Positions 3,030 to 17,361 of a stretch of DNA of 20,880 bases are shown piece after piece (the first letter of the stretch is position 1; each line of letters opens with the position of its first letter). A program made the position numbers and the translations under genes. Below the pieces are notes generated by a model. That model had not been told where the DNA came from. It ran no database searches and saw only the letters and a list, made by a program, of their open reading frames with translations. The DNA lies in the IMG/VR virus record IMGVR_UViG_3300031216_000082, positions 1-20,880 of that record; one strand, written 5' to 3'. The stretch is from a virus.

Positions 3030-3048
3030 GTATCCAGATACTGAATAC
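3030..3048 (+). promoter_or_regulatory. Motif 1, copy A (GTATCC-N7-GAATAC)
   Basis: This is one of eight 19-bp sites with fixed spacing. It lies four bases before the ATG of the gpW-like gene and 31 bp after a terminator, where transcription of the head genes must restart. A TTGACA at 3016-3021 lies just upstream, but the distance from such hexamers to the motif differs between copies. The motif may be an operator, an activator site or part of a phage-specific promoter. Confidence 0.7.
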
Positions 3049-3052
3049 AGGC

Positions 3053-3289
3053 ATGGCAATTCCTGACATCAGCTTTTATACGACCGCCGAAGTCGCAACC
3101 CTGCGCACCGCCGTCGTCGCTGAGCGTTTGCGCCGGGCTACAGGTGGCACGATCACCAGCGCGAACAAGAACGGTCGGCAGTTTACCGTTGAGAGTGCCA
3201 GCGAGTCAGAGCTTGCGGGGCTGGAGCAAGCATTAGCGCGTCGGCTCAACACTGGCGGGGCGAACAAGCGGCGTATTTCATTCAATTAA
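3053..3289 (+). CDS. gpW-like head-tail connector protein
   Basis: A 78-aa protein between terminase and portal has the size, composition and position of lambda gpW, a small protein that joins the filled head to the tail and stabilises packaged DNA. The first half is helical and rich in Ala/Leu/Arg (TTAEVATLRTAVVAERLRRA). A short beta-prone segment (RQFTVESAS) follows, then a second helix (ELAGLEQALARRLN) and a basic C-terminus. This helix-beta-helix order fits gpW. The start is immediately after motif 1 copy A. The gap to the portal gene is only nine bases, consistent with cotranscription. Confidence 0.75.
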   Translation: MAIPDISFYTTAEVATLRTAVVAERLRRATGGTITSANKNGRQFTVESASESELAGLEQALARRLNTGGANKRRISFN

Positions 3290-3298
3290 CCAGCACAC

Positions 3299-4837
3299 AT
3301 GGGACTACTTTACAACTTTCTCAGCGGCAAGCTCACAGCAGACCGCGCCTCAAATTCCCTCATCGTAGCACGCGCCAAGGAGATGACGAATCTCTACGAA
3401 GGCGGCCAGCGCAGCCGTAACCGTGGCAACGCATACGGAACGTTCCAGTCGCCCGAGGGCGCAACGGCAACGACCGAGCGGCTACAGATGATACTTGAAG
3501 CCCGAGACCTAGAAGATAACTTCCCGATCGCTGACATGATCTTAAACGTTTACGACGTTTACGCATTCGGAACCATCCGCTACCAGCCGATGACCGGCGA
3601 CGTAAATTTCAACAACGAGATCAGCGAATTCCTCAAGGAGTGGTTTGCTGAGTGCGAATACACTGGGCGATTTGATTTTCAGAAAACGGCGCAGATGGCG
3701 CAACGCGGCAAAAAGCGCGACGGTGAATCTGGCATTGTGCATATTATCGACGAAAACGGAGACTACAAGATTCAGCTAATTACTGGAGACCGTATTGGAA
3801 ATCCGAATACGATCCTTTCCAATAATCTCAACGACCAGAACGGAATCCTAGTTGACGACGGCGGTCGCGTGCTAGGGTATGAACTTTACAGCCGCAGGTC
3901 GAACAGCAGCGTTTACACTTTCGACAAGTTCATTCCGCAAGGCCACTTCTCGCACGTATTTGACCCGACACGTGCAGACGCTTACCACGGAGTAACTGCT
4001 TTCAAATCCGTGATTACGCGGATGCGCGACATGAAGGAAACGCTCGAATACTCGCGCATCAATATCAAATACCGCGCCACTCAGTTGCCATACATGAAGA
4101 CCGACGACGGCGAAGTGCCTAGCGACGTAAACCACTTCAGGGACAACCAGCCGCCAAAGCCAACGCATGACGAAGCGGGCGTAAAGCTAGAGCACGTCGA
4201 AGGCGGCGAGCAGCAATACATGCGCACGACTGAGGGCGTGTTTGAGTTTCCGAACGACTTCCCGAACGGAACATTCCTGCCCGTAATCGAAACGCAAGCG
4301 AAAGAAATCTTCGCAGGCGTAGGGCTGTCTTACGATTTCAGCTGGAAAGTGGACAAACTTACCGGCACAGTCGGCAGGCTCGTAGTTGAGCGCGAAGACC
4401 GCGTGATGCAGATCGAAAGGTCTAACTCTGAGCGGCAGTGGATGAACATGGCCATTCGCCGTGCCATCCAAAACGGAATCGACCAAGGCCGAATCAAAGG
4501 CGACAGCGCAACCAAATTCAAGGGAGCGTTTTTCTACGGTGCTCGCATCACAGCCGACTACGGACGGGACGCAAAAGCAGACATTGAACTCGTAAACGCG
4601 GGGCTACTGACAGAGACCGAATATCAGCACATACACGGCCGCCACCCCGAGGACGTGCGCACGACTCGACTAGAGGAAACACTTGGATTGATTCAGGACG
4701 GCAAGAAAGTTGCTGAAAAATCTGGCCTGTCCGTAGACAACGCGACAAACCTAATCCGCAAGGTGTACCCACAGCCGCCAACCATTCAGAGCGTATCCGA
4801 GACAACGCAACCCGGCGCTGAGCTTGAGCGGCGTTGA
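3299..4837 (+). CDS. Portal protein, lambda family
   Basis: The 512-aa product is predicted to form the dodecameric ring at one head vertex, through which DNA enters and leaves, and to dock terminase and the connector. Length and position match lambda gpB. The N-terminus is consistent with the family: a short amphipathic start, then a long helical region and an alternating beta segment around residues 85-200 (NVYDVYAFGTIRYQP, ESGIVHIIDENGDYKIQLIT). A conserved-looking helix-rich stem region follows around 330-400. The C-terminus is polar and ends inside the start of the next ORF. ATG 3299 follows CAGCACAC without a Shine-Dalgarno sequence. The assignment is confident from context and overall pattern. 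Confidence 0.92.
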   Translation: MGLLYNFLSGKLTADRASNSLIVARAKEMTNLYEGGQRSRNRGNAYGTFQSPEGATATTERLQMILEARDLEDNFPIADMILNVYDVYAFGTIRYQPMTGDVNFNNEISEFLKEWFAECEYTGRFDFQKTAQMAQRGKKRDGESGIVHIIDENGDYKIQLITGDRIGNPNTILSNNLNDQNGILVDDGGRVLGYELYSRRSNSSVYTFDKFIPQGHFSHVFDPTRADAYHGVTAFKSVITRMRDMKETLEYSRINIKYRATQLPYMKTDDGEVPSDVNHFRDNQPPKPTHDEAGVKLEHVEGGEQQYMRTTEGVFEFPNDFPNGTFLPVIETQAKEIFAGVGLSYDFSWKVDKLTGTVGRLVVEREDRVMQIERSNSERQWMNMAIRRAIQNGIDQGRIKGDSATKFKGAFFYGARITADYGRDAKADIELVNAGLLTETEYQHIHGRHPEDVRTTRLEETLGLIQDGKKVAEKSGLSVDNATNLIRKVYPQPPTIQSVSETTQPGAELERR

Positions 4838-5090
4838 CGGGAACGGCAACTTAGTAACCGAAGAAATAAAAGCAGATCCGTTGATTGCATCGATTGGCGT
4901 TGGCGGATCTCAGGCAATGACGCAAGTTATTGAGGGATTCGGAACCGGTGTAATACCCAAAAGCGCAGCTAAGATAATGCTGGTCAACGTTCTCGGCCTC
5001 GCGCCTGACCTTGCCGATGAGATGCTCGCCAGCGCGGAAGTGTCGCCACTTGTCGCAGACGGACTCGATACCACCGTAACAGGCGAATAG
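4824..5090 (+). CDS. Small portal-associated or head protein of unknown role
   Basis: This 88-aa ORF starts at TTG 4824 and overlaps the portal gene by 14 bases in the +1 frame. The core (about residues 17-70) has two helices joined by a turn: an IASIGVGGSQAMTQVIEG segment, then a PKSAAKIMLVNVLGLAPDLADEML segment in two parts. Similar helical modules end portal or minor head proteins in other phages. The domain may thus be a detached portal C-terminus or a small partner of the portal. An ATG at 4917 is an alternative start but would remove the first helix. The ORF ends 35 bases before motif 1 copy B. The specific function is not known to me. Confidence 0.7.
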   Translation: MSGVDGNGNLVTEEIKADPLIASIGVGGSQAMTQVIEGFGTGVIPKSAAKIMLVNVLGLAPDLADEMLASAEVSPLVADGLDTTVTGE

Positions 5091-5115
5091 CGTCAATCAA
5101 AACGATGTTGACCTT

Positions 5116-5144
5116 TTCAGTTTGTGTATCCATAAACTGAATAC
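5116..5144 (+). promoter_or_regulatory. Motif 1, copy B, overlapping an 8-bp inverted repeat
   Basis: The 19-bp motif at 5126-5144 (GTATCC-N7-GAATAC) ends on the base before the protease ATG. TTCAGTTT at 5116-5123 and AAACTGAA at 5134-5141 form a perfect inverted repeat that brackets GTATCC. A TTGACC (5108-5113) lies upstream with CATAAA 17 bp later, which could be a -35/-10 pair. The symmetry suggests operator-like binding or an RNA hairpin next to the start codon. Confidence 0.65.
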
Positions 5145-6182
5145 ATGGCAGAATCTTTTCAGTCGCAAGTAGTAGCATTTGACCAGTCACTCGGACTGGC
5201 ACTGCTTGACAACGCCATCGACCTTACAGCCGGAACCATCAAAGGCGTAAGCCTTGCGACCGCAGGCGTTGAGGCCATCGGCCACGGCGAGTATGACGAG
5301 ACCACGCAAGAGCTGATACGCGAGTTCTGGACAGACGCTACCACGCTTGAGACGATGCTTGTTGCCTGCCTTGCAATCGGACAGCCGCTCAAAGCCAAGC
5401 TTGAACACGGCACCGGACTCTCCGAAGTCGTTGGCACGTTCGACAATTTCCGTATCGATGGCGATCACCTCCGCGCAGACTTTACAGCGATTCCAACCTC
5501 AGCGGGCGTAGCGCATTTGTTTTCGCTAGCCGACCGCATCTCTAGGCAGTTCGGCGTATCCGTCACAGCACTACTGCAAAAAGTAAAACAGGGCGGGGTC
5601 GATCTAATGCGCTGCATGAAGATAGAGTCGGCGGACTTTGTGGACGCGCCCGCAATCAACGCGGGCTTATTTTCCGCTAAAACTAAATTTAGCAAACTCA
5701 CCAAAAACCAAACACAGATTATGACAGAAGAAGAAATCAACGCACTGATTGCCGAGGCATTAAAGCCCATGCAAGAGCAACTTACTACACTCGTGGAGGG
5801 TATGCCCGAAGAGCTATCAGCCGACGAACTCGAAGCTGAAGCGACCGCCGCTGCTGCACTTGAAGCTGAGGGTGAAGCAAGCAAAGCTGAAATGTCTGCG
5901 CTTAAAGCCAGCATGACAGCACTGGAGACTAAAAACTCCACGCTCGAAGCTAACCTTGCTACGGCAACCGCCGAATCGAAAAAGCTCGGCATCTCGTTCG
6001 GCGCATCCTTGCAAGTGCAGGAAGCACAGACCAAACAGACCGACTCGTTCTCCGCCGAAATGTCCAAAAAGACCGGCGAGGGCAAAGCTTACCACGTCGC
6101 GCTTATGGAGCTTACACGTGAAAATCCAAAACTCGTAAATGCAGAGGCCGCTCAGCGCGGAGTCTACGTTTCTCAACTCTAA
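5145..6182 (+). CDS. Prohead maturation protease fused to scaffold domain
   Basis: The 345-aa product has an N-terminal protease-like domain (about 1-180) and a C-terminal scaffold-like domain (about 193-345). It would guide capsid assembly and then degrade the scaffold and itself inside the prohead. The protease half carries an LEHG segment with His88, a GTFDNFRIDGDHLRADF segment, and FGVSV with Ser139. This His/Ser layout matches prohead proteases of the HK97/herpesvirus-type fold. The rest is acidic and helical, rich in Ala/Glu/Leu with coiled-coil character near 245-286, as expected for scaffold. The ATG directly abuts motif 1. An internal in-frame start is annotated separately. The exact peptidase family is uncertain because the linking sequence was not compared with databases. 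Confidence 0.82.
   Translation: MAESFQSQVVAFDQSLGLALLDNAIDLTAGTIKGVSLATAGVEAIGHGEYDETTQELIREFWTDATTLETMLVACLAIGQPLKAKLEHGTGLSEVVGTFDNFRIDGDHLRADFTAIPTSAGVAHLFSLADRISRQFGVSVTALLQKVKQGGVDLMRCMKIESADFVDAPAINAGLFSAKTKFSKLTKNQTQIMTEEEINALIAEALKPMQEQLTTLVEGMPEELSADELEAEATAAAALEAEGEASKAEMSALKASMTALETKNSTLEANLATATAESKKLGISFGASLQVQEAQTKQTDSFSAEMSKKTGEGKAYHVALMELTRENPKLVNAEAAQRGVYVSQL
5721..6182 (+). CDS. Putative nested scaffold protein from an internal start of the protease gene
   Basis: An in-frame ATG at codon 193 of the protease gene would yield a 153-aa protein (starts MTEEEINALIAEAL) consisting only of the helical, acidic scaffold domain. It is preceded by an A/C-rich stretch (CCAAAAACCAAACACAGATT) very like the leaders of genes at 232, 6203 and 11738. 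Lambda makes its scaffold Nu3 in the same nested way from the protease gene C. The stretch encodes a low-complexity interdomain linker (KLTKNQTQI), which fits a dual-purpose sequence. No expression data exist, so this is inference by analogy and leader resemblance. Confidence 0.55.
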   Translation: MTEEEINALIAEALKPMQEQLTTLVEGMPEELSADELEAEATAAAALEAEGEASKAEMSALKASMTALETKNSTLEANLATATAESKKLGISFGASLQVQEAQTKQTDSFSAEMSKKTGEGKAYHVALMELTRENPKLVNAEAAQRGVYVSQL

Positions 6183-6202
6183 TCCACAAACAGTAAAACA
6201 TT

Positions 6203-6589
6203 ATGGCAGGATCAACTACAGTTTTTAACGTCGCCGGGGTCGTAACAGGTCTAGCGGACGCAGACCTCGCGCAATTCATTCGCGTGAAAATCACAGCAAC
6301 CGGTTACGCAGTAGCCGCCAAAGCTGACCGTGCAGACGGCATCACTCAAGAGGCGATTGCATCTGGTGCTTACGGCTCCATCAAACTTCTTAGCGGGGCC
6401 GACGTGAACTTCGGCACCGCTTCGGGCGCAACCATCGCAGCAGGCGTTAAAGTCTACAGCACGTCTGCTGGCGAGCTTTCCTCGACTAAGGCAACCGGCT
6501 CTTTTGAAGAGGGCGTATCGATCACAGCCGCAGGCGCTGACGAAATCTTCGAGTGGCGCTACAAGCCTTCATCCGTTGCCGAGTCCTAA
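6203..6589 (+). CDS. Head decoration / capsid cement protein
   Basis: The 128-aa protein lies directly before the major capsid gene, the usual place for the decoration protein that binds the expanded shell and stabilises it. It is beta-rich, with many Ala, Gly, Thr and Val residues and an alternating hydrophobic pattern (FNVAGVVTG, FIRVKITATGYAVAA, GVKVYSTSAGEL). There is no signal peptide or membrane segment. Composition and length fit cement proteins of the gpD-like or DUF2190-like kinds, and I cannot separate these by eye. ATG 6203 follows an A/C-rich leader ending AAAACATT, shared with the 11738 gene, and no Shine-Dalgarno sequence. Confidence 0.72.
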   Translation: MAGSTTVFNVAGVVTGLADADLAQFIRVKITATGYAVAAKADRADGITQEAIASGAYGSIKLLSGADVNFGTASGATIAAGVKVYSTSAGELSSTKATGSFEEGVSITAAGADEIFEWRYKPSSVAES

Positions 6590-6596
6590 GCTCTGC

Positions 6597-6615
6597 GTAT
6601 CCAATAACCAACTAC
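6597..6615 (+). promoter_or_regulatory. Motif 1, copy C (GTATCC-N7-AACTAC)
   Basis: The left half, spacing and the fixed C are kept; the right half is AACTAC as in copy E. The site lies 10 bases before the major capsid ATG and eight bases after the decoration gene stop, so the most strongly needed gene of the module has its own copy. Confidence 0.68.
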
Positions 6616-6625
6616 ATTTAATATT

Positions 6626-7582
6626 ATGTCAGTCTCACAAGCATCAATCTCACAAGCCTTGACGTCCTACGTTCTACAAGGTCTCGCAAAACGAACCGAC
6701 TTTGTCGGCCTCGAAGTTGCTCCCGAACACGGGCAAGATAAACTCGACGGCGAGTATCCAGTCGTTGCACTCGCAAACGGCGAAATGCTTCGCAACAACA
6801 CCGCACCGCGAGCACCGGGTGCCCTGTTTAAGCGGATCGAAGCAAAGATCGGACTTGAGACAACTAAGCTGTCTGGCGACGGTTTGGAAATCCCAATCCC
6901 TATCGAAGTCGCTCGCAACTCGGACATCCCAATCATCGGGGTGTACGCCGAGGAAGCCATGCTCAACAGCATGCGCTTGCACGAGACCCGCGTAGCCGCA
7001 ATCTCTCAAGGAACCGGCTTTGACACGGTAGCCTCTACCGCTGCCTACACTACTGCGAACATCGCGACGAGTGATCTGGCTATGGACATCCAACTCGGCA
7101 TTGACCGCGTGCGTGACCGTGGCGAGTATCCTGACACGATTGTCATCCCGCAAGCCGTTTGGACGCGTCAGCGCTTCTCGACTAAGCTCGCCGCGTTCAT
7201 CGTTGGCGCAAATGGTGCAGGCGCAATGGTCACAGTCTCAAATCTGCAAAAGGCATTTGCCGATGAAGGCATCAAGCGCGTCTTGATTGGCCGCTCGCAG
7301 ATCAACACTGCCGCAAAGGGCAAGGTGGACATCGGTCAGATTTGGGCAAACACTCACATCTGGATCGGCGCAGGCCGCGACGCCGACACCAATGCACCTG
7401 GCGACTCGATGCGCACCGCGATCAAGACCTTCTTCTGGCGTGAGATCTTTAACGCGCCGTTCTTCGTTGAGCAGTATTTCGAGAAGAAGATCGAAAGCGA
7501 CATCATCCGCGCTTGGGGCTACACCAACGAGAAGCTAGTCAACGCCCGCGCTGGCACCCGCATCACCACGCAATACTCATAA
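6626..7582 (+). CDS. Major capsid protein (HK97 fold)
   Basis: The 318-aa protein is the shell subunit. It follows protease/scaffold and decoration genes and is followed by a strong terminator, the classic position. The pattern is that of lambda/Mu-like capsid proteins. It has an N-terminal helix then 'DFVGLEVAPEHGQ', a long middle domain with 'PDTIVIPQAVWTRQRF' and 'GQIWANTHIWIGAG', and a C-terminal 'TFFWREIFNAPFFVEQYF' strand before 'DIIRAWGYTNEKLVN'. No protease-removed N-terminal delta domain is obvious, consistent with a separate scaffold. The start follows AATATT, with no Shine-Dalgarno sequence. The fold is inferred, but the identity is strongly supported by context. Confidence 0.9.
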   Translation: MSVSQASISQALTSYVLQGLAKRTDFVGLEVAPEHGQDKLDGEYPVVALANGEMLRNNTAPRAPGALFKRIEAKIGLETTKLSGDGLEIPIPIEVARNSDIPIIGVYAEEAMLNSMRLHETRVAAISQGTGFDTVASTAAYTTANIATSDLAMDIQLGIDRVRDRGEYPDTIVIPQAVWTRQRFSTKLAAFIVGANGAGAMVTVSNLQKAFADEGIKRVLIGRSQINTAAKGKVDIGQIWANTHIWIGAGRDADTNAPGDSMRTAIKTFFWREIFNAPFFVEQYFEKKIESDIIRAWGYTNEKLVNARAGTRITTQYS

Positions 7583-7610
7583 GTTTTCATTAGGGGTAAT
7601 GATATAGCGG

Positions 7611-7641
7611 AAGGGGCGTCTCGAAAGGGGCGCCCCTTTTT
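7611..7641 (+). terminator. Rho-independent terminator after the major capsid gene
   Basis: AAGGGGCG (7611-7618) pairs with CGCCCCTT (7631-7638), followed by further Ts to 7641. The inner GGGGCGCCCC (7627-7636) is self-complementary, so an alternative tight hairpin is possible. It would stop or attenuate readthrough from the head operon into the next cassette. Confidence 0.8.
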
Positions 7642-7653
7642 GTGTCTACAGGC

Positions 7654-7670
7654 CTTGACAACCTGCACAC
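7654..7670 (+). promoter_or_regulatory. Motif 2, copy 2
   Basis: The 17 bp are identical to copies at 2772 and 8209. It begins 12 bases after the capsid terminator T run, so it is well placed to start the cassette of small membrane proteins. A -10 at standard spacing is not evident (AATGTC), so the element may not act as a simple sigma-70 promoter. Confidence 0.55.
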
Positions 7671-7678
7671 GCGCAGCA

Positions 7679-7942
7679 ATGTCGAGCTGTAGCAATTCCG
7701 CTGCACACACCAGCACCGACGCAAGAGCAATCCGAGCCGCTATCATGCGTGCTCGCAGCTACCGAGGAACCATCCCGCCGACAACACCTAACCCGCACAG
7801 CCATGAATCCGATCATCACGATAATCGCCGCCAACATCGTCTCAATCATCTGCACCATCGGAGCCGTGACGCTCGCCCTAAACGGCATCGAAAGCTGGGT
7901 ATGGTTCCTGGCCGCGGCTGCGTGGTGCGCAACGCGGGTTGA
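7679..7942 (+). CDS. Possible small ORF at the head of cassette 2 (doubtful)
   Basis: An 87-aa frame starts at ATG 7679, eight bases after motif 2. The first 35 or so residues (with TDARAIRAAIMRARSYRG) look coding-like. From about 7803 it overlaps the better-supported membrane-protein ORF, and its translation there is His/Arg-rich, typical of an out-of-frame shadow. It could be a genuine overlapping gene, or the start of a gene truncated by insertion or frameshift. No function is recognised. It is kept because it fills the space between motif 2 and the next gene. Confidence 0.25.
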   Translation: MSSCSNSAAHTSTDARAIRAAIMRARSYRGTIPPTTPNPHSHESDHHDNRRQHRLNHLHHRSRDARPKRHRKLGMVPGRGCVVRNAG

Positions 7943-7988
7943 CTTCCGCCGATACCGAGAGGCCAAGCGCAACCGTCCTAACCTGTAA
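7803..7988 (+). CDS. Small membrane protein (61 aa)
   Basis: The ORF from ATG 7803 encodes 61 residues. A long hydrophobic segment (about residues 3-26, ITIIAANIVSIICTIGAVTL) is followed by a second at about 31-41 (WVWFLAAAAW) and a basic tail (DFRRYREAKRNRP). This predicts an inner-membrane protein with one or two helices and a cytoplasmic basic C-terminus. The frame is open upstream to GTG 7749, but the ATG immediately precedes the membrane helix. It overlaps the next small gene by one base (TAACG). In a phage cassette such proteins can be holins, superinfection-exclusion factors or other host modifiers; nothing here decides which. Confidence 0.6.
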   Translation: MNPIITIIAANIVSIICTIGAVTLALNGIESWVWFLAAAAWCATRVDFRRYREAKRNRPNL

Positions 7989-8131
7989 CGCCGACCTACC
8001 ACCTAATCTTACAGCTAGCGTTCTGCGGTTTCGGCCTAGTCGCCGCCTGCGTATTTTCCTACGGCTGTTTTCTGCTGGCGGAATCCATCGGCAGCATTTA
8101 CCGGATTGCTAAGGATCGATTTCGGCGATAA
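7988..8131 (+). CDS. Putative 47-aa membrane microprotein with a non-canonical ACG start
   Basis: This frame has no ATG, GTG or TTG start but looks coding. After the stop at 7979-7981 it is open to TAA 8129-8131 and encodes a clear transmembrane helix, FGLVAACVFSYGCFLLA, then a basic tail (IYRIAKDRFRR). The preceding gene ends at TAACG, where ACG (7988-7990) is in frame. Five other junctions in this window are TAATG (9372, 10034, 12744, 15815, 19065), and 20509 makes a sixth. A T-to-C change, or a true ACG start, would fit. The product with its tail mirrors the preceding 61-aa protein. It may be poorly expressed or a recently disabled gene. Confidence 0.45.
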   Translation, partial: TPTYHLILQLAFCGFGLVAACVFSYGCFLLAESIGSIYRIAKDRFRR

Positions 8132-8166
8132 CACCTAGCTAGTAAACTCGTTTCCCTAGCGACTCC

Positions 8167-8195
8167 ACAGCCCCGCAGCAATGCGGGGCTGTTTT
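8167..8195 (+). terminator. Rho-independent terminator closing cassette 2
   Basis: A perfect 10-bp stem, ACAGCCCCGC (8167-8176) with GCGGGGCTGT (8183-8192), has a six-base loop and a short T tail (8192-8195). It lies 36 bases after the membrane microprotein frame and 14 bases before motif 2 copy 3. Confidence 0.85.
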
Positions 8196-8208
8196 GTGCA
8201 CACAAACA

Positions 8209-8225
8209 CTTGACAACCTGCACAC
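8209..8225 (+). promoter_or_regulatory. Motif 2, copy 3, before the DNA ligase gene
   Basis: This third identical copy of the 17-bp motif lies between a terminator and the ligase ATG (8245). TATCTA (8235-8240) could serve as a -10 at 19-bp spacing from TTGACA. A terminator at 8967 closes the unit, so the ligase appears to be transcribed alone. Confidence 0.58.
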
Positions 8226-8244
8226 ACAACGCACTATCTACCCC

Positions 8245-8958
8245 ATGACACACGCCCCCCAACTCGCTACAGACTACTACGGCCAACCGATCAAAGGCTG
8301 GCTGCTTTCCGAAAAGCTGGACGGCATCTACGCAGATTGGACAGGATCAGAGCTTCGCACGAAGACAGGCAAGCTCATCCTATGCCCTACGAGCATCACA
8401 GACAGCCTTCCAGCGTTTCCCTTAGCGGGCGAGCTATGGGCGGGGCGCGGAGGGTTTCAGCGCGTTCTATCCGCCCTCAAATCTGGCATCTCTGGCGACT
8501 GGGCAAGTATTGAGTTTGTGGCATTTGACGCGCCCGGCTCACTTGCCCGCGCATCAACTCGGATGGAGATAACACAAAGCATCCCTAGCGTTAAAGCGGT
8601 ATCCCAAACCGTAATTACCGACAAGCGCCACATGAAGCGCCTAGTCAAAGAGATACTAGCCACCGGCGGAGAGGGCGCAATCCTGCGCAATCCAGCATCA
8701 CTATACACCGCTGGCAGGTCTGACGACTACGCCAAGGTCAAGCCCGTGCTATGCGACGAGGCGACCTATACGGGCAAGACAGTGACCACAGCGACGGGAA
8801 AAACTTCATTAATCTGCGAGTATCAAGGTGAGACCTTTAAACTCCACACCAACACGCCAGCAACTAAAGGCCAGCTAGTCACGTTTGAATATTACGGACT
8901 GACAGACAGTGGCAAACCTCGGCACGCTCAGTTTATTGCAATCAGAGACTACGAGTAA
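8245..8958 (+). CDS. Minimal ATP-dependent DNA ligase
   Basis: The 237-aa enzyme would seal nicks through a lysyl-AMP intermediate. All core nucleotidyltransferase motifs are seen: motif I EKLDG with adenylated Lys24, motif III GELWAGRGGF near 62-71, IIIa FVAFDAP near 91-97, IV GEGAILRNP near 142-150, and V YAKVKP at 162-167. A short OB-fold follows from about 170 (LICEYQGETFKLHT, LVTFEYYGLTDSGKPR). There is no DNA-binding N-domain and no signal peptide, unlike many periplasmic LigE proteins, so it is a stripped-down cytoplasmic type. I chose ATG 8245; the frame extends upstream into the motif 2 region. The gene stands alone between two terminators inside the structural region, far from any replication gene. 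Confidence 0.9.
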   Translation: MTHAPQLATDYYGQPIKGWLLSEKLDGIYADWTGSELRTKTGKLILCPTSITDSLPAFPLAGELWAGRGGFQRVLSALKSGISGDWASIEFVAFDAPGSLARASTRMEITQSIPSVKAVSQTVITDKRHMKRLVKEILATGGEGAILRNPASLYTAGRSDDYAKVKPVLCDEATYTGKTVTTATGKTSLICEYQGETFKLHTNTPATKGQLVTFEYYGLTDSGKPRHAQFIAIRDYE

Positions 8959-8966
8959 AATCTAGC

Positions 8967-9001
8967 GCCTCACAGCCCCGAGTAAACTGCGAGGCTTTTT
9001 T
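8967..9001 (+). terminator. Rho-independent terminator closing the ligase cassette
   Basis: GCCTCACAG (8967-8975) pairs with CTGCGAGGC (8987-8995) with one A-C mismatch. The loop is 11 bases, and six Ts follow to 9001. Structural genes resume 20 bases later at motif 1 copy D. Confidence 0.85.
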
Positions 9002-9021
9002 GCGCCTTGCCATTTACATCT

Positions 9022-9040
9022 GTATCCATTAACTGAATAC
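9022..9040 (+). promoter_or_regulatory. Motif 1, copy D (GTATCC-N7-GAATAC)
   Basis: This copy is nearly identical to copy B (ATTAACT versus ATAAACT in the spacer). It ends two bases before the ATG of the first head-tail joining gene and 20 bases after a terminator, so it marks the restart of the structural operon. Confidence 0.72.
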
Positions 9041-9372: not shown

Positions 9373-10034
9373 TGGCAAAGCCAGTAAAAGATTTCTCGGT
9401 CGAGTTTGACCAAGTGCAGATAAACAAGCTCTTCAACGAGCTACTGCGCAACGTGAGCGCGGTCACGCTCAAAAACATCGTGCGCGGAGAAGCGGCAGCG
9501 GTGCTACTTAGCGCGGCGAAAAAGACTCGGATTGCTAGCAAGAAACTCATAATCAAAACCTCGGGAATGGAGAAGGCGGCAAGGGTTTACAAAAATCGCA
9601 ATCCTAGATGGATCACTAGATCTGCGGAGCTACTAGCAAAACGAAAAGCCCGGCTAGCCGAAAAACTGCGAAGGATCGGGAGTGCTCGTGACGCATGGCT
9701 GGCGATTATCCGCAAACTCAACCTCAAACCCGCGAACGCCAACCAGGCCAAAGGTCTAACGAAACTCATGGGCAAAAAACGCCCACTAGTAGACGGTAAA
9801 ATAATCTATCATAAAGAGACGGGTGGCCGTGAGATCGTTAGGGGCAAGGGTTCTTACGCGCTAGAGATCAAATACGGAAACCCTATTGGAAGATGGACAG
9901 GCGCAAGCCCTGCGCTAAAAAGCGCCGTCCTCGGCCGCAGGAAGTTCTTTCGCTCAAACCTCCGCGCAGGCGTGTTCAACTCTGCCAAGGAAACCGCCGC
10001 TAAGTATCCCGGCATCCAGATCAACAAACTGTAA
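9372..10034 (+). CDS. Tail-completion / minor tail protein (gpZ- or gp10-like, putative)
   Basis: The 220-aa protein starts at ATG 9372, which overlaps the previous stop as TAATG; the frame is open upstream, but that start fits the coupled pattern. The N-terminal helix carries FDQVQINKLFNELL. A very basic helical middle follows (about 55-135, many Arg/Lys), and the C-terminal part is mixed (GSYALEIKYGNP). Basic proteins of this size between the stopper and the tail terminator are usually the minor tail protein Z or HK97 gp10 group, which complete the upper end of the tail tube. The family is not proven by a motif I can name, so position carries most weight. Confidence 0.6.
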   Translation: MAKPVKDFSVEFDQVQINKLFNELLRNVSAVTLKNIVRGEAAAVLLSAAKKTRIASKKLIIKTSGMEKAARVYKNRNPRWITRSAELLAKRKARLAEKLRRIGSARDAWLAIIRKLNLKPANANQAKGLTKLMGKKRPLVDGKIIYHKETGGREIVRGKGSYALEIKYGNPIGRWTGASPALKSAVLGRRKFFRSNLRAGVFNSAKETAAKYPGIQINKL

Positions 10035-10569: not shown

Positions 10570-11655
10570 ATGAGCAACAACAACCTAGAAAACGGCAACA
10601 GCAACGAAATCGACGCAACGCGCCGCGCAAGCATCCGCGCCACGATGGAAGTTTACAGCCAAGACGAAACGGACGCTCGGCCTACGCTTATCGGCAACAC
10701 GATATTCGTCGCCAAGACTGGCACCGACACCCGCACCGGACTCGACGACCACGACATCCGTAAGCCGTTTCTGACAGTCAACGCAGCGCAGGCAGTGGCG
10801 GTGAGCGGCGACACGATCATGGTCTTTGCTGGCGACTACAGCGCAGAGACCGCGCTCGGCGGCGTGGATGGCGTTTATTATCAGGGGATTACCGGCGCGA
10901 CGTTGCCAGCGTTTAACGTAATGACTGGGATTACTATTTACGGCAGCGGATTGGCGCAGTCGCTTCTTTGCAATCATGCCAGCGCGGTCATGAATTTTGC
11001 GCGGATGGATGCGGTAACTTTTATTGAGTGCGGGGGCGGAGTGCAAACCGTTGGCAACGCTAGCACTATTATTTATTGCGATGGCGGCGTGCAGACCGCA
11101 GGCAACGCTGGCAATTATATTTATTGCGATGGCGGCGTGCAGACCGCTGGCAACGCTGGCACTTATATTTATTGCGGCGGCGGCGTGCAGACCGCTGGCA
11201 ACGCTGGCACTATTATTTATTGCGAAGACGGCGTGCAGACAATCACTCACGCAAACTTCACCTCAACCGACCGCCCCGTCAGACTATCAGGACCAGGCAG
11301 CCTCACCATAACAGGCCGCATCGAGTCCACCGAGTCAAACGGCGTGATCGTGGACATCGCCAACAGCTGGAGCGGCACACTTAATGCCGTAGACCTTGAC
11401 CTGACAGCCACCACCGTCGCCACCAACGGCGCAACCAAGGGCATCAACTACGGCAACAGCGTCACGGGCAATGTGCAGCTCAAGAACTGCACTATCATCA
11501 CGGCCAAGAACGGCAGCGGCACCGCCAAGAGCATCGACGCGCCCGCCGCGCAAGCCGTCTACGTTCAGGGCTCGCTCAACCAAACACACGCGGTTGATTC
11601 CGACATCACGCTGGCGGGCGGCGCTGCTATCACCAACACGTCATTCACCGTGTAA
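10570..11655 (+). CDS. Beta-helix protein with tandem 16-residue repeats
   Basis: A 361-aa protein of right-handed beta-helix type. After a short N-tail, residues about 45-85 (FVAKTGTDTRTG, then DIRKPFLTVNAAQA, GDTIMVFAGDYS) match the opening of pectate-lyase-like phage and surface proteins. About residues 154-217 are four copies of a 16-residue unit, CDGGVQTAGNAGTYIY, plus a partial fifth, which would add regular helix turns with stacked Cys and Asn columns. Threonine-, serine- and asparagine-rich coils follow. Such proteins usually bind glycans or act as tailspikes or head/tail decorations. It lies between the tail terminator and the next small gene, where a major tail protein would be expected, and lacks any tail-tube pattern I recognise. 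Confidence 0.7.
   Translation: MSNNNLENGNSNEIDATRRASIRATMEVYSQDETDARPTLIGNTIFVAKTGTDTRTGLDDHDIRKPFLTVNAAQAVAVSGDTIMVFAGDYSAETALGGVDGVYYQGITGATLPAFNVMTGITIYGSGLAQSLLCNHASAVMNFARMDAVTFIECGGGVQTVGNASTIIYCDGGVQTAGNAGNYIYCDGGVQTAGNAGTYIYCGGGVQTAGNAGTIIYCEDGVQTITHANFTSTDRPVRLSGPGSLTITGRIESTESNGVIVDIANSWSGTLNAVDLDLTATTVATNGATKGINYGNSVTGNVQLKNCTIITAKNGSGTAKSIDAPAAQAVYVQGSLNQTHAVDSDITLAGGAAITNTSFTV
11029..11240 (+). repeat. 48-bp tandem repeat (about 4.4 copies) inside the beta-helix gene
   Basis: Copies start at 11029, 11077, 11125 and 11173, with a partial fifth from 11221. Copies 2-4 differ at only a few bases; copy 1 and the fifth are more diverged, so the centre looks like the newest expansion. 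Each copy is 16 codons, so gain or loss changes length without a frameshift. The repeat also keeps other frames open, producing false ORFs. Confidence 0.95.
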
Positions 11656-11693
11656 ACTTTAGTCATTGCGATTTGCTCAAAACTTTGCAATGT

Positions 11694-11712
11694 GTATCCA
11701 GGATCCAACTAC
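11694..11712 (+). promoter_or_regulatory. Motif 1, copy E (GTATCC-N7-AACTAC)
   Basis: The left half, spacing and fixed C are kept; the right half is the same as copy C. It is farther from its start codon (25 bases) than the other intergenic copies. Just upstream, CATTGC (11664-11669) and GCAATG (11687-11692) form an inverted repeat without a T run. The 82-bp gap between the beta-helix gene and the next gene holds nothing else. Confidence 0.65.
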
Positions 11713-11737
11713 AACACAACCAAACCACTAAAACATT

Positions 11738-12112
11738 ATGACAACAGAATACGAAGACGGCGCACAATTACTTGACGCATTCGAGGCTCCAATCGCTACG
11801 CAAGATTACATTTTTAACGATTGGAGCGTGACCCCCGCGACACTCATGGCGGAGCGCAACGACGAAAAAGGCCGTCTTGCCGCAAAGCGCAACCTCGACG
11901 ATCCCGGTCGTGATACTGCAACAGCAACGATTCAGATTTCAGTTTCGGCGATGAATCAGAAACTGACTCACGAAACGTTCATCTGCCCTGCCGGTGCGCA
12001 CTACGACGGCAACGCTACAACTTACGTTATCGAATCTGAAACTGCACCAGTGACAGTCAACGAGTCCCGCATTCGCACGATCACCTGCCGTAGAATCCTC
12101 ACCCAGCCTTAA
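11738..12112 (+). CDS. Small tail protein, possible tail-tube subunit
   Basis: The 124-aa protein has beta-strand patterns throughout (TATIQISVSAMNQKLT, TTYVIESETAPVTVN, RIRTITCRRIL) and no signal or membrane segment. It has its own motif 1 copy and an A/C-rich leader ending AAAACATT, as in the decoration gene, which suggests a product needed in quantity. A major tail protein is expected somewhere between the terminator and chaperone genes. This is the only remaining beta-rich candidate there, though it is short for the family. That role is a position-based guess. Two bases separate its stop from the next GTG. Confidence 0.5.
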   Translation: MTTEYEDGAQLLDAFEAPIATQDYIFNDWSVTPATLMAERNDEKGRLAAKRNLDDPGRDTATATIQISVSAMNQKLTHETFICPAGAHYDGNATTYVIESETAPVTVNESRIRTITCRRILTQP

Positions 12113-12114
12113 CC

Positions 12115-12744
12115 GTGCGCAACGTCAAGGCCAGCATCCCAGGATGGCTTGACGCGATCCAACATGAGGCCGAGTGTCACGAGTCGGCAATCGCACACCC
12201 TCACGATGGAGTCTGCGGCGTGCCTATTCGTCACCTCAGCTTGATTGACCTCGCTCGGATGCGCGAGCCGTCGATTGATAACTGCTTTTTTAACGGCAAT
12301 TATCCCAGCGAATTTGAGTTCATGGCGCTGCCTCAGCTACAGGCTCACGCCGTGGACTTTCTCGTTTATCAACACGTCAAGAGCACGACTAACTCATTCG
12401 TCAACACGTGCCGCCGCTACAGATACCGCCGCCTAGACATGGCGACCGTATACGCCGATATTACGCAGCTCCTGACATCTACCTACCTTGACGCGCTCGG
12501 AGCCTCTGACGAGTCGCACGGGCGCACGGCAATAAGCTTCTGGGCGGGATCAGTGGACTACGTTGACCTGATCGCGACGGAATACGGATGGACGGACACG
12601 CACATCGAAAACATGCCGTATCGCAAGCTGATTCAATGCGTGCGCAAAATCCTAAAGCGGCGCGACCCGAAACAGATTATCAGCTCGTCGGCTGATCGCG
12701 TTGTATCGCGGTGGCAGGAGCATAAAGCAAAGGAGCGTAACTAA
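12115..12744 (+). CDS. Possible tail assembly chaperone, helical protein before the tape measure
   Basis: The 209-aa product begins at GTG 12115, three bases after the previous stop codon; no better start precedes it. It is mostly helical. It contains His and Cys residues near the N-terminus (IQHEAECHESAIAHPHDGVC), aromatic-rich helices in the middle (ATVYADITQLLTSTYLDAL) and a basic C-terminus (RVVSRWQEHKAKERN). Position directly before the tape measure is that of tail assembly chaperones (lambda gpG/GT), which coat the tape measure during tail growth. No slippery-sequence frameshift to a second frame is seen, so the usual two-protein chaperone system is not evident. Its stop overlaps the tape-measure ATG. 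Confidence 0.45.
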   Translation: MRNVKASIPGWLDAIQHEAECHESAIAHPHDGVCGVPIRHLSLIDLARMREPSIDNCFFNGNYPSEFEFMALPQLQAHAVDFLVYQHVKSTTNSFVNTCRRYRYRRLDMATVYADITQLLTSTYLDALGASDESHGRTAISFWAGSVDYVDLIATEYGWTDTHIENMPYRKLIQCVRKILKRRDPKQIISSSADRVVSRWQEHKAKERN

Positions 12745-14531
12745 TGGCATTTTCACTCAAGGCAATTTTAGGGCTGGAAACTTCGCAGTTTGAGCGCGGC
12801 ATCGGTAAAGCCAAAAGCGGCATCAAGGGCATGGCTAGTGAAGGCATCAAGAATATTGCCCGACTAGGCGCGGCATTTGTTGGAATTGGCCTTGTAAAAA
12901 ACATTTTAAGCTTAGGTTTGGCGGCGACTGAAACAGCCGACAAGTTCAATGCCGTGTTTGGGCCAGCGGCCGGAGCAATGAATAAAAGGATTGAGGAACT
13001 ACAAGAAACAATTCCCGCTTCAGTCAAAGAGCTACAAGATGCCCTTGCCGTATTCGGTCAAATGGCTAGCTCTTTCGGGCTTAATTCAGCCGCCGCTCAA
13101 GATTTTTCAGTCAACATGGTTAAAATAGCAGGCGATTTAGCCAGCTTTAACGACATGAAACCCGAAGAGGTTTTTATAAAGCTCCGATCAGCAATTACTG
13201 GAGAATTTGAGCCATTAAAGCAGATGGGCATAATGATCGATGCAGCTAAAATGAAGACTGAGGCGTTTAATCTTGGCATATCAGACGGTGTTACCGCCCT
13301 TAGTTCATCTCAAAAAGCCATCGCAATACAGTCGCTAATTGTTCAACAAATGGGTGCTGCATCGGGAAACGCGGCAATTACCGCCAATAGTGCAGCAAAT
13401 CAATTTAAGTTTCTTCAACGGAACATGAAAGACTTGGCTGCGGAAATTGGAACAGAAGCATTACCGGCCGTCGAATCAATGATAAGGGGTATTGGTTTTT
13501 TACTTAGTAAGACCAAAGAGTTTACGGATTTTGCAGGCACAAAAGTAGGGGAAATGATTTACGGGCCATCTGCTGAAACTTTAGCAAAACAAGAAAAGTT
13601 TAACCAGCTAAAGGCTGCTCAGTTGCAAGCGTTGCGCGAACTTACAGCGGAGAATGAGCTTTATAAACAGGGAACTTTTGAAGGTACGCTCTGGACTAAG
13701 GGACTCAGTGAGAAACTAGATGAAAATAAAGCTAAAATAAAAGCTCGCACTGCTGCTATATTAAAAGGACTAAGCGAAGAAGCCGAAAAAACCGAATCTG
13801 TCAAAGATGGCATAGTAAAAGGCGACGACGAAATAAACGAAGGTAAGGATGAAATAAGCGAATCTCAAAAGAAAATCAATGAAGCAAATGATGCTTTATT
13901 AAAAAGCATAAATGATCAAATTGAAGCTCAAGGGGAGTTTGCTAAACAACAAGAAATTATTGCAGAAGCCGCTAAATCAGCAGCAGAGGAAAAAGCAGAA
14001 AGAGAAGCTCTCCAAGCTAAGCTCATGTCAATGAAACTGGCCGCCCTCAAAGCTGAAACTAGGGGAGAAGACCAGCTTGCAAAAGCGATGAATAACCGCA
14101 TAAAACTAGCGGAGCGCATACTCAAAATAATGAAGGAAACTGGCGCGACCCAGCGCGAAGCGACCATCATAGCCAACAAGCAGGTCAAGGCTGAGTTGGC
14201 GGGGGACAGCGGATCAACTGGCGGCACCGCAAGCGGATCAACGGGCGGGTCAACCGGCAAAGACCGCGTTGGCGGCGTGCAGGGCAACTTCGGCGGCTAT
14301 GGCTCCCGCTTTGGGCCTAAGCAGACAATGGACGAGCGCGAACGTGCAGCCGGTCTCAACCTCGCCGGCAACGACACTTTAAGCGGGCGCAGAGGCCCCG
14401 AAAGCCTCGGAATGGCTGGATCAAAGGCTAAGAGCGAGTTTGGGGAAGCATTGACTCCGACGAATAAGGAGCTGAGTAAAATGAATCGCTCGCTGAAAAC
14501 AATCGAAACCGAACTGACCAATGGCAACTGA
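12744..14531 (+). CDS. Tape measure protein
   Basis: A 595-aa, strongly helical protein that sets tail length and is ejected with the DNA. The start is TAATG-coupled and has a good AAGGAG site eight bases upstream, rare in this window. N-terminal residues carry the typical opening (GLETSQFERGIGKAKSGIKG), then a hydrophobic segment at about 38-58 (LGAAFVGIGLVKNILSLGLAA) and FNAVFGPAAGA. Ala/Gly-rich membrane-prone helices and long Glu/Lys coiled coils follow (about 270-460). A Gly/Ser/Thr linker (about 490-530) precedes the C-terminus. At about 0.15 nm per residue the tail would be roughly 90 nm. DNA at about 12860-14060 is clearly more AT-rich than its neighbours. Confidence 0.9.
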   Translation: MAFSLKAILGLETSQFERGIGKAKSGIKGMASEGIKNIARLGAAFVGIGLVKNILSLGLAATETADKFNAVFGPAAGAMNKRIEELQETIPASVKELQDALAVFGQMASSFGLNSAAAQDFSVNMVKIAGDLASFNDMKPEEVFIKLRSAITGEFEPLKQMGIMIDAAKMKTEAFNLGISDGVTALSSSQKAIAIQSLIVQQMGAASGNAAITANSAANQFKFLQRNMKDLAAEIGTEALPAVESMIRGIGFLLSKTKEFTDFAGTKVGEMIYGPSAETLAKQEKFNQLKAAQLQALRELTAENELYKQGTFEGTLWTKGLSEKLDENKAKIKARTAAILKGLSEEAEKTESVKDGIVKGDDEINEGKDEISESQKKINEANDALLKSINDQIEAQGEFAKQQEIIAEAAKSAAEEKAEREALQAKLMSMKLAALKAETRGEDQLAKAMNNRIKLAERILKIMKETGATQREATIIANKQVKAELAGDSGSTGGTASGSTGGSTGKDRVGGVQGNFGGYGSRFGPKQTMDERERAAGLNLAGNDTLSGRRGPESLGMAGSKAKSEFGEALTPTNKELSKMNRSLKTIETELTNGN

Positions 14532-15243
14532 ATATTTAGACGGCACCGCCTTCACTACTGCCCGCCAACACGGCGACTTAATCCTCGATCGCCCATTGAC
14601 TGACGTGGGCGACGCGACAGCTCTGGTTATCTACCGCACGATGCGGATTCTAAGCGCCGACTACGCTCCCGTTAGCAGGGGCACAGCGTTAGCGGGATTT
14701 ACTGGATCTCGACTCATTCGCGAAACGCAACCCGAAGAAATCAGCACGGGAGTGTGGGAATTTAAGCAAATCTATGCAACAAAGCCAGCGAACCGATCAG
14801 ACGTGTTTTCAGGCTCGATCAGCTTTCCATTTCCATCAACTCAAGGCGTATATTACACGCCTCCTGCGACTGCTGAGTCTGCTGATGAAAGTGATGATAA
14901 CCTGTGGGAATATCGCGAAGAAAAAACGGCTGTCACGAATCCCGGCGTTTTGTATATTGATTACGTTTACTTCCTCGAAGCTTCACCTCCGACAATAGCC
15001 ACAGTGTTTAAGTCATCAGAGCCCGGATTCGTTTCTAATGGCGGCGCGGGCACATTAACGAATGCAAAAGCCTTAAACGGGGATGTATTCACTGGAACAT
15101 ATTCAGTCAGTGCCACCACGCCATCCGCTACAGCTTACGCAACATCAATAACGGATGGCGATCTGTTAAATGTTGACGTGCGGATTAGCAGATACATGGG
15201 CGACATTTTCGTCATGGAAACCCACAAGACAGCCGCAAAATGA
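14521..15243 (+). CDS. Tail protein of unknown type, first gene after the tape measure
   Basis: A 240-aa protein whose start lies within the last codons of the tape measure, so it is translationally coupled. The sequence is beta-rich: TALVIYRTMRILSADYAP, GVWEFKQIYATKP and VDVRISRYMGDIFVMET, with Ser/Thr-rich loops between. No motif of the distal-tail, hub or gpM/L/K families is visible. By position it may be a distal tail-like or tail-tip base protein. It is coupled downstream by ATGA to the 191-aa gene. Function is unassigned beyond a structural tail role. Confidence 0.6.
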   Translation: MATEYLDGTAFTTARQHGDLILDRPLTDVGDATALVIYRTMRILSADYAPVSRGTALAGFTGSRLIRETQPEEISTGVWEFKQIYATKPANRSDVFSGSISFPFPSTQGVYYTPPATAESADESDDNLWEYREEKTAVTNPGVLYIDYVYFLEASPPTIATVFKSSEPGFVSNGGAGTLTNAKALNGDVFTGTYSVSATTPSATAYATSITDGDLLNVDVRISRYMGDIFVMETHKTAAK

Positions 15244-15815
15244 AAATAAAACCCGAAGAAGTTAAAGGCTGGGGCACCTTTCGGCGTGTATTGAAAAAGC
15301 TGATACACTCCGCCAACCGCACCGAAAACATTTCGATTAGCCGAAATAGTTTCACCGACGGCGTGACCTATTCAGGCGATTCGATCATACTTAATATTTC
15401 AAAATCGAAACCAAGTCTCGGCGGCGTCAGCTCTGGAAATTTAGGCATTCACGCCTTTCAGTTAGTTGAAGAGGATATTACTACGCTTTGCGTTCGACAA
15501 GGAACCGTTGGCACTATCATTCCGACTATTACAGGAGGCAGCGAACTTGAACCCGATTACACCGAAAACGTGTTATCACTACCGGGCACAGGAACCCGAG
15601 AATACTGGCTCAAGATTACAATAGACTCAAGTGGCTATATTACAGCCGTCACCATCGAGGATGGTGAGCCAGGTAACGTCAGCGCAACTCAAGCTGAAAT
15701 CCTACTTGGAAGCGTTGAGACCGATAGTGGCGATATAGTCGTGTTTAACTCAAACCTTAGCGGCTCACAGGCACTAGCCTCTTGTGGCGCAAATCACTTT
15801 TTTGGATTCGTCTAA
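15240..15815 (+). CDS. Beta-rich tail-tip protein, unknown function
   Basis: The 191-aa protein is coupled to both neighbours (ATGA before, TAATG after). After a basic N-terminus (GWGTFRRVLKKLIHSANRT) it is almost entirely beta-prone: NISISRNSFTDGVTY, DSIILNISKS, ITTLCVRQGTVGTIIP, EYWLKITIDSSGYITAVTIE and GDIVVFNSN. The rest is Ser/Gly-rich turns and an aromatic end (NHFFGFV). The pattern suggests a beta-sandwich or trimeric fibre part. No catalytic motif is seen. It is grouped with the tail tip only by location and coupling. Confidence 0.55.
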   Translation: MKIKPEEVKGWGTFRRVLKKLIHSANRTENISISRNSFTDGVTYSGDSIILNISKSKPSLGGVSSGNLGIHAFQLVEEDITTLCVRQGTVGTIIPTITGGSELEPDYTENVLSLPGTGTREYWLKITIDSSGYITAVTIEDGEPGNVSATQAEILLGSVETDSGDIVVFNSNLSGSQALASCGANHFFGFV

Positions 15816-17068
15816 TGGGAAACCCGTTCAACATAGGGCCGTTTAATTGTTGCTCCTGTCCTGAGCCTCCAGACTTCGATGCCGAGGTGGACGATCCGAT
15901 GGCTAAGTATATCAATATGTGCGGTTGCCCGACTGTCGCGATATTCTGCGTGAGCGAGGAAAAGATCGCTACGCTCTGCGGCAAAATGGAATTTCAAGAC
16001 CTCACCGCCGATCCCCCCGTATTGCGGTCTTCACCGCCCGCAGTGTATAAGTCAAAGGAAGTTGAGACTGTCACCGTCACACCCTCTGTCACCACAAGTT
16101 TCCCGCAGCGCTGCTGGCAAACAGGGATCACTGGTGACTCAGATGTTACTACAATAGATTATACGGCCACGGCAGTTACGACAAGCCGGCACTTTACTGA
16201 AAAGACAGTAACAAGTCTATCCACCGAAGTGTGGGATACGGAAACATGCTCAAGCTCTACCTCAAACGATCCTGTTTCCATTGTAGGAGGTGTAGGCAGC
16301 ACGTCTGGCGAGCTTGATTGCTCTAGCTATAATGGCAACAACCCCCCCGGTTGCGGCCCAATAGATCCACCCCTCACAACACGGGGTGCTGTAATACCCG
16401 CTGTTGTGCCAGATGATCCGTCCGACTTGGTTGGAAACGCATTAAAAATAAACGTATCTCATACATTTGTTAATAGTGGTAGAGCCGCAGGCACCTATGA
16501 ATACACATCATCTCGGCAGGACACAGAAACTTTCGATGGGCTTGAGTTAGTGGATTCGGATTGCGGAATTGATTCTAGATCAACTTTAGATATACCTGGG
16601 TATGCTGCTAGATACTCCACTACCACAACAACAACTACATTATCGTTGCCAGACTCCGAGGAAGAAGCATTAGCCCGCGCTACGGCCAAAGCAGGTTCAG
16701 ATTGTTCCTCTATCGACGAGCTCCGCACCGACTCCTACGACATAACCCAGCGCACCGCCACTTACACGGCTACAGCTAGCAACCTCGTGATCGGCGTGCC
16801 CTACAAGGGCTGCGTGCGCCTTCGTCGCCGCAAAGCCTACAGCGGCACCACCCCCCTCGACCCCGAGACGGAAGTCACCGAAGTTATCGCATGGGAAGAT
16901 GTTGAGCCCGACACCATTGCACCTTTTACGCCAACAGAAACAAGCGAGGAAGTCGCGACCGATGAAGCCCTGCCCACCGCCAAGGGCTATGAATACCAAG
17001 CAGTCAGCGCCCACGTCTGGCCAGTCTCCGCAGGTTGCGATTGCCCTACATCTTACGTAACCCCATGA
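15815..17068 (+). CDS. Large cysteine-rich tail-tip or fibre protein
   Basis: A 417-aa protein starting at ATG 15815 in a TAATG junction. The N-terminus has a dense cysteine set (NCCSCPEPPDF, then NMCGCPTVAIFCV and ATLCGK) and the C-terminus ends with SAGCDCPTSYVTP; single cysteines occur between. The middle is Thr/Ser-rich and beta-prone, with a run of seven Thr (YSTTTTTTTLSL) and repeated TxTxT stretches, suggesting an extended or fibrous fold. Cysteine pairs such as CxC may bind metal or an iron-sulfur group, as known for some tail tips, but no specific family is recognised. Base composition is more AT-rich in the middle than at the ends. Confidence 0.6.
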   Translation: MGNPFNIGPFNCCSCPEPPDFDAEVDDPMAKYINMCGCPTVAIFCVSEEKIATLCGKMEFQDLTADPPVLRSSPPAVYKSKEVETVTVTPSVTTSFPQRCWQTGITGDSDVTTIDYTATAVTTSRHFTEKTVTSLSTEVWDTETCSSSTSNDPVSIVGGVGSTSGELDCSSYNGNNPPGCGPIDPPLTTRGAVIPAVVPDDPSDLVGNALKINVSHTFVNSGRAAGTYEYTSSRQDTETFDGLELVDSDCGIDSRSTLDIPGYAARYSTTTTTTTLSLPDSEEEALARATAKAGSDCSSIDELRTDSYDITQRTATYTATASNLVIGVPYKGCVRLRRRKAYSGTTPLDPETEVTEVIAWEDVEPDTIAPFTPTETSEEVATDEALPTAKGYEYQAVSAHVWPVSAGCDCPTSYVTP

Positions 17069-17292
17069 TTACTCGAAACCATAAACCGACACCGCTCGTG
17101 CTGACCGAGGCACAGAAGGCCAGCTTGCAAAAGCCACAGTCGCGACCCAAGCACCACGGCTTAGGCGACCTCGTTGAAAAGCTCGCGAAGCCCATCGCCA
17201 AGGTGATCGACCGCGTGGCAGGCACAAACATTCAAGGATGTGGCGGGTGTCAGAAGCGCAAGGAATGGCTAAATGATAATTTCCCGAAGTAA
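17065..17292 (+). CDS. Small protein with a GCGGC motif, unknown function
   Basis: The 75-aa product starts at ATG 17065, which overlaps the previous stop (ATGA); an in-frame upstream start at 17035 would overlap more. It has a basic, Pro/Lys/His-rich N-terminal half, an amphipathic helix (GDLVEKLAKPIAKVIDRVAG) and a compact cysteine motif, GCGGCQKRKEWLN, near the C-terminus. Small proteins with this kind of CGGC-KR-LN ending recur in phage tail regions, but I know no proven function. A metal-binding or redox role would be a guess. The gap after it (75 bases) carries motif 1 copy F. Confidence 0.65.
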   Translation: MITRNHKPTPLVLTEAQKASLQKPQSRPKHHGLGDLVEKLAKPIAKVIDRVAGTNIQGCGGCQKRKEWLNDNFPK

Positions 17293-17342
17293 CCGCAAAA
17301 TTGACCCATCCCAGCCCGCTTCCAGTCGGCACTTGCCAAAAC

Positions 17343-17361
17343 GTATCCAATAACCTAATAC
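17343..17361 (+). promoter_or_regulatory. Motif 1, copy F (GTATCC-N7-TAATAC)
   Basis: This copy ends six bases before the ATG at 17368. Here the right half, TAATAC, lies 17 bp after TTGCCA (17333-17338), so it could act as the -10 of a sigma-70-like promoter. The other copies do not keep that distance, so the arrangement may be fortuitous. Confidence 0.7.

Follow-up and report, generated by a model that had tools for sequence, protein, structure and literature searches.

The 20,880-nt stretch analysed here (the window, which is the complete 20.9-kb virus record IMGVR_UViG_3300031216_000082) carries a repeated 19-bp sequence that, judging from comparisons with related phages and bacterial chromosomes, is probably the operator of a dimeric and probably host-encoded regulator, placed over phage promoters. 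The repeat is genuine and far above chance expectation: the strict pattern GTATCCNNNNNCYNANTAC has seven forward and no reverse matches in the window and none in 100 dinucleotide shuffles of it, and an eighth copy, at 19889, deviates by one mismatch. A sequence-only reading of the window had reported eight copies with ten invariant positions, and both statements are borne out (all copies are at the given coordinates on the plus strand, and the invariant positions are 1-6, 12 and 17-19), as are the 0-25 bases that separate six copies from the following ATG (3030, 4 bases; 5126, 0; 6597, 10; 9022, 2; 11694, 25; 17343, 6) and the inverted-repeat halves of the copies at 3030, 5126 and 9022. Among the names it gave to the six genes concerned (connector, protease, capsid, head closure, tail protein and tail fibre unit), a family search confirmed the major head protein and provided no confirmation for the other five.

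The same reading held that the element marks structural genes, possibly as a late regulon, and this part is not supported. The contig IMGVR_UViG_3300031335_000006 (L016/L017; 33.85 kb), which is near-identical to the window, contains 12 sites, and the four added ones (4349+, 8263+, 9771+ and 3793- on that contig) lie in the early region. A position matrix set these 12 sites, with scores of 25.3-32.7 bits, clear of the best unrelated site at 12.7 bits. Their alignment reads Y-GTATCCA-N-WWW-C-Y-N-A-M-TAC-A, with no strong conservation in the flanks, and all are oriented with transcription: 11 of the 12 are plus-strand sites with plus-strand genes, and the single minus-strand site precedes a minus-strand open reading frame (ORF). 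Two classes can be distinguished, class A (3030, 5126, 9022 and 3793-) being an inverted repeat and class B (4349, 6597, 8263, 9771, 11694, 17343, 19662 and 19889) being asymmetric and readable as direct heptads, TATCCAN-WAWCCNA. The candidate operator copies of the window are given below with homologous positions in the cultured Verrucomicrobia phage P8625 and in L055, a P8625-like contig in an Opitutae metagenome-assembled genome (MAG).

3030-3048, plus strand: class A copy, GTATCCAGATACTGAATAC, homologous to P8625 5426 and L055 2639
5126-5144, plus strand: class A copy, GTATCCATAAACTGAATAC, adjoining ATG 5145
6597-6615, plus strand: class B copy, GTATCCAATAACCAACTAC, 10 bases 5' of the capsid gene ATG 6626 (capsid by family search); no -35 found
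9022-9040, plus strand: class A copy, GTATCCATTAACTGAATAC, homologous to P8625 9634 and L055 6846
11694-11712, plus strand: class B copy, GTATCCAGGATCCAACTAC, 25 bases 5' of ATG 11738
17343-17361, plus strand: class B copy, GTATCCAATAACCTAATAC, within a 21-mer identical at P8625 17515
19662-19680, plus strand: class B copy within the lipoprotein-like ORF 19629-19859
19889-19907, plus strand: class B copy with one mismatch, within the lipoprotein-like ORF 19856-20509
3792-3810, no strand assigned: weak palindrome GTATTGGAAATCCGAATAC inside the gene named as portal, fitting GTAT-Y-S-R-N5-Y-S-R-ATAC

The terminase of the window is most similar to that of P8625 (host Puniceicoccales sp. IMCC8625), and the element recurs there at 5426, 9634, 10750, 11267, 15573 and 17515, with all copies except 11267 no more than seven bases from an ATG; an additional palindromic copy at 8089 is intragenic, in a protease-like gene. 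Homologous positions retain the element in L055 and in the metagenomic contigs L132, L138-L141 and L144, so that P8625 and its relatives do have the element at homologous starts, the absence of which the sequence-only reading had named as refuting its proposal. Within this group the element takes the form of a clean palindrome, GTATCCA-N5-TGGATAC, whose half-sites vary mostly within GTAT-Y-S-R. Other TerL relatives (L012, L023-L054) mostly do not carry it, and matches to TGGATAC in several marine contigs were discarded as they proved to be coding sequence. Neither promoters nor a motif of this kind are mentioned in the main text of the article describing P8625 (PMC4642752).

We then considered how the element is placed relative to promoter-like sequences. 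A hexamer with at least five of six matches to TTGACA starts 35-37 bp before the ATG at window copies 3030, 5126, 9022 and 17343 and at P8625 5426, 9634, 10750 and 15573, and at P8625 17515 a weaker TTGCAA (4/6) starts 36 bp before it. Such a -35 is thus present at four of six window starts and five of six P8625 sites, nine of 12 together, one of the P8625 sites being the weak match; by strength of match, eight of 11 starts reach 5/6 or better and one more reaches 4/6, compared with a background of 1.7% of all ATGs of the two phages. Most of these sites also have a TAnnnn box some 17 bp downstream of the -35, and L039, a relative that does not carry the 19-mer, has TTGACA-17-TATAAA at an equal distance from its ATG.

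3016-3021, plus strand: -35 TTGACA, 37 bp 5' of ATG 3053
3039-3044, plus strand: -10-like TACTGA within copy 3030
5108-5113, plus strand: -35 TTGACC, 37 bp 5' of ATG 5145
9007-9012, plus strand: -35 TTGCCA, 36 bp 5' of ATG 9043
17333-17338, plus strand: -35 TTGCCA, 35 bp 5' of ATG 17368
17356-17361, plus strand: -10-like TAATAC within copy 17343
2972-2998, plus strand: terminator-like hairpin by sequence, GCCCGCC..GGCGGGC plus T6, upstream of copy 3030
8967-9001, plus strand: terminator-like hairpin by sequence plus T6, upstream of copy 9022

The distance from motif to TTGACA-like hexamer does vary, as the sequence-only reading had noted, but the distance from hexamer to ATG is nearly constant: counted from the first base of the -35, the start of the 19-mer lies at 10-18 bp, and the 19-mer so slides by up to 8 bp against an almost fixed frame. 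A -35-to-ATG spacing of 35-37 bp fits a transcription start (+1) at the A of the ATG, and this geometry suggests leaderless sigma70 promoters with an overlapping operator rather than a core promoter or an element of the ribosome-binding site. The Shine-Dalgarno core AGGAG occurs in none of the copies; as nearly every gene of this phage, with or without the motif, lacks a Shine-Dalgarno sequence, we dropped this absence as an argument for leaderless starts. Some Verrucomicrobia are counted among organisms in which these sequences are scarce (PMC10783764). In P8625 (L019), the TTG annotated as the start of gp13 at 9620 coincides with the predicted -35 TTGCCA; the real start of gp13 is probably the ATG at 9656, 36 bp further on.

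The palindrome is also abundant in the chromosomes of some Opitutae (Verrucomicrobia). We searched panels comprising the order or class of an Opitutae MAG, some members of which are themselves MAGs. In G006, the MAG that holds L055, 61 palindromes were found at up to two mismatches, compared with 10 having a 6-bp spacer and five for the reversed pattern. Across the 52 genomes of its order, GTATYCA-N5-TGRATAC occurs at 48 places, compared with two for the N6 spacing and one for the reversed pattern, and these 48 fall in seven genomes (19 in G045, nine in G006, eight in G034, six in G026, four in G039 and one in each of two others). G120, from the class-wide panel, has 71 places at up to one mismatch and G026 has 25, with no reversed match in either. 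A few of the places in G006 and G039 belong to phages or integrated elements. The host sites examined lie mostly inside ORFs, where they are spread over every codon phase (16/13/9 and 7/7/5); a -35 is found near only 2 of 45 and 0 of 21. Codon bias as a cause of the G006 excess (61 vs 5 reversed) is removed by the N6 control together with the codon-phase test. Because the sites occupy all codon phases and almost none has a -35 nearby, the chromosomal pattern indicates selection on the DNA itself for a purpose other than ordinary promoter control. The presumed agent is a protein that a minority of these genomes have, and its role in the host may not be transcriptional.

Several further analyses of the chromosomal sites gave negative results. 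Autoregulation was sought at intergenic host sites, which lie mostly between convergent genes, and no common regulator emerged; loci with a site in several genomes proved to be conserved coding sequence. Neither a second ParB (Noc-like) nor ParB copy number tracks the sites, and no origin or terminus bias is obvious by eye among the 25 places in G026. Distant prophages in G026 and G045, found through their tape measure genes, have sites only within coding sequence. A class B search of the 52 genomes returned five places, of which site-positive genomes hold four. One of the five is 6 bases 5' of an ATG, close to an integrase gene, and the other four are intragenic. Two local arrangements were also observed. 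An integrated element in G039 (L147/L148, G039:C98, ~172.9-180.1 kb), with integrase-like, AlpA-like and primase-like genes by eye, has four palindrome-type sites within ~3 kb, and at L149 94-142 (G006:C45), at the end of a small low-GC contig, two palindromes lie 30 bp apart, a spacing that would suit cooperative binding.

Pairwise comparison of the window phage with P8625 detected no common regulator, and only structural genes are clearly common to the two. Both encode small helix-turn-helix proteins (L016:1131-1388, minus strand, and P8625 26427-26849), and these do not align with each other. The ORF beside 3793- was tried as a ribbon-helix-helix regulator and rejected, a single-sequence model giving two helices. 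Given that the site is common to both phages and to host chromosomes, and that no common phage regulator was detected, a host DNA-binding protein is the simplest account.

We therefore favour, as probable, an operator of general form GTAT-Y-S-R-N5-Y-S-R-ATAC for a dimeric regulator that is probably host-encoded, its site being laid over phage promoters. At class A copies 3030, 5126 and 9022 the operator would overlap the -10 and +1 of an ordinary sigma70-type promoter; with transcription predicted to start at the A of the ATG, the mRNA would be leaderless. Given this overlap, occlusion of RNA polymerase is the likeliest effect of binding, and repression or timing of phage transcription units the likeliest role. 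The class B copies would be oriented variants in short gaps, acting as activator-dependent promoters or elongation roadblocks. We infer from sequence that such a protein exists, that the host encodes it, that it represses and that the transcripts are leaderless; several observations weigh against this reading. The class B copies, asymmetric and for the most part lacking a -35, are left unexplained by a plain repressor model; two of them, 19662 and 19889, lie inside ORFs, each 33 bases 3' of its ATG. The -10 boxes are of poor quality, and the one at 5126 follows a 19-bp spacer. On host chromosomes the sites lie mainly within genes and away from promoters, the Opitutae panels may not contain the window phage's own host, and a small phage-encoded regulator could be missed by pairwise comparison.

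Other explanations differ in who encodes the protein or in what the element does. It is possible, if on the unlikely side, that class A copies are true operators and class B copies roadblocks of the stoperator kind in short gaps. Each of the eight class B copies is oriented with transcription, six of them lie in short within-operon intergenic gaps, mostly without promoter boxes, and the same division into operators and roadblocks is described for phage L5 (PMC9283540). The support for this view is sequence layout, and set against it are the lack of an identified repressor gene and the single asymmetric consensus that serves both roles in L5. We regard as doubtful a phage-encoded regulator (a repressor, or a late or early activator) whose site is common by descent or through related small regulators, the chromosomal copies then belonging to a host protein with a similar site. 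The density of about one site per 3 kb in the phage, against about one per 50-400 kb in chromosomes, the small helix-turn-helix proteins in both phages and the cluster in the integrated element of G039 all favour it; against it stand the failure of those two proteins to align, the finding that structural genes alone are clearly common to the two phages, and a host enrichment that is spacing-specific and lineage-restricted.

The sequence-only reading had itself offered three options, of which an activator or repressor site is supported by the palindrome in relatives, by its sliding against the promoter and by its occurrence, with one specific spacing, in host chromosomes. That the element is itself a promoter, or an activator site, for an alternative form of the polymerase, with 21 conserved bp around -10 to +1, appears improbable. 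The orientation of all 12 sites with transcription and the position of class B copies near starts despite their lack of a -35 would suit it, but the 19-mer slides 8 bp against the fixed -35/ATG frame, the form in P8625 is palindromic, host copies are intragenic without -35 boxes, and the near-complete contig contains no unassigned ORF of adequate length for a single-subunit RNA polymerase. For palindromic copies, with ordinary -35 and -10-like boxes at constant ATG spacing, the unusual-holoenzyme option is thus disfavoured, while for the asymmetric copies without a -35 it may still hold. An RNA element at the translation start, either a hairpin or a ribosome-binding element, is very improbable: most copies do lie within 25 bases of an ATG and the palindromic form is foldable, but class B cannot form a stem, the two half-sites change independently of each other (CCA occurs with TGA, for instance), transcription is predicted to start at the ATG, and a missing Shine-Dalgarno sequence is nothing special in this phage.

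The element can be compared with several known systems. The stoperators of the cluster A mycobacteriophage L5 are 13-bp asymmetric sites for a monomeric phage repressor (PMC9283540); like the element, they are numerous short sites spread over the genome, found at promoters and in short gaps between genes and pointing with transcription, whereas the form in relatives here is a 19-bp palindrome with N5 that also recurs abundantly in host chromosomes. We found no L5-type pairing of a short asymmetric site with a monomeric immunity repressor, and no repressor was identified. The SAS/ESAS of cluster K mycobacteriophages is a 13-bp non-palindrome with AGGAG at the ribosome-binding position, found chiefly with non-structural genes and hardly at all in the host (PMC3203893); like the element, it is repeated across the genome in a set orientation, a few bases ahead of start codons, whereas the element lacks a Shine-Dalgarno core, also accompanies structural genes and has many copies in some Opitutae. 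Operators of omega (ParB of pSM19035) are 7-10 consecutive heptads, WATCACW, overlapping promoters (PMC9499535). Class B likewise comprises adjacent 7-bp direct repeats (TATCCAN, WAWCCNA) and class A inverted ones, whereas omega has another sequence and long heptad runs, and no ribbon-helix-helix protein was found here; we treat the likeness as a resemblance and a lead. Among nucleoid proteins, the chromosome-wide sites of Noc (NBS), SlmA (SBS) and MatP (matS) are likewise palindromes scattered in tens of copies over each chromosome, for the most part within genes; their sequences differ from that of the element, for which no origin or terminus bias is obvious by eye in G026.

Other features of the phage were recorded alongside. 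The start of IMGVR_UViG_3300031335_000006 recurs at 33577 and the contig overlaps the window's right end with each of its two termini, and the genome is therefore probably circularly permuted or terminally redundant, at ~33.6 kb close to the 32.9 kb of P8625. A peptide deformylase is encoded at L016:1985-2377 on the minus strand (Pfam PF01327, E 5.7e-32), and an early ORF (L016:9792-10325) contains an internal duplication of ~30 residues (EETRTSESPEKPMDECFTAMQALSDVVISV twice). Window 10570-11655 encodes a protein with tandem near-identical repeats (IIYCDGGVQTAGNAG...), and contigs of this phage differ by indels from about 10875 onward. The ORFs 19629-19859 and 19856-20509 are consecutive and small, with similar lipoprotein-like signal peptides (VSVILIHCAGC and VSIILILGAGC).

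Distributed phage operators are already known; here, in a phylum that has received little study, the same palindrome also appears to act as a host site across the chromosome. It is conceivable, though short of probable, that an Opitutae lineage has an undescribed chromosome-wide DNA-binding protein with tens of mostly intragenic sites, and that phages place its site over leaderless promoters, making the protein a genome-wide phage switch. If true, the control of phage genes would be linked to a chromosomal protein of the host, for whose isolation a 19-bp bait, used alongside an N6 control, would offer a direct handle; the element would also provide a rule for finding promoters and correct gene starts in verrucomicrobial phages.

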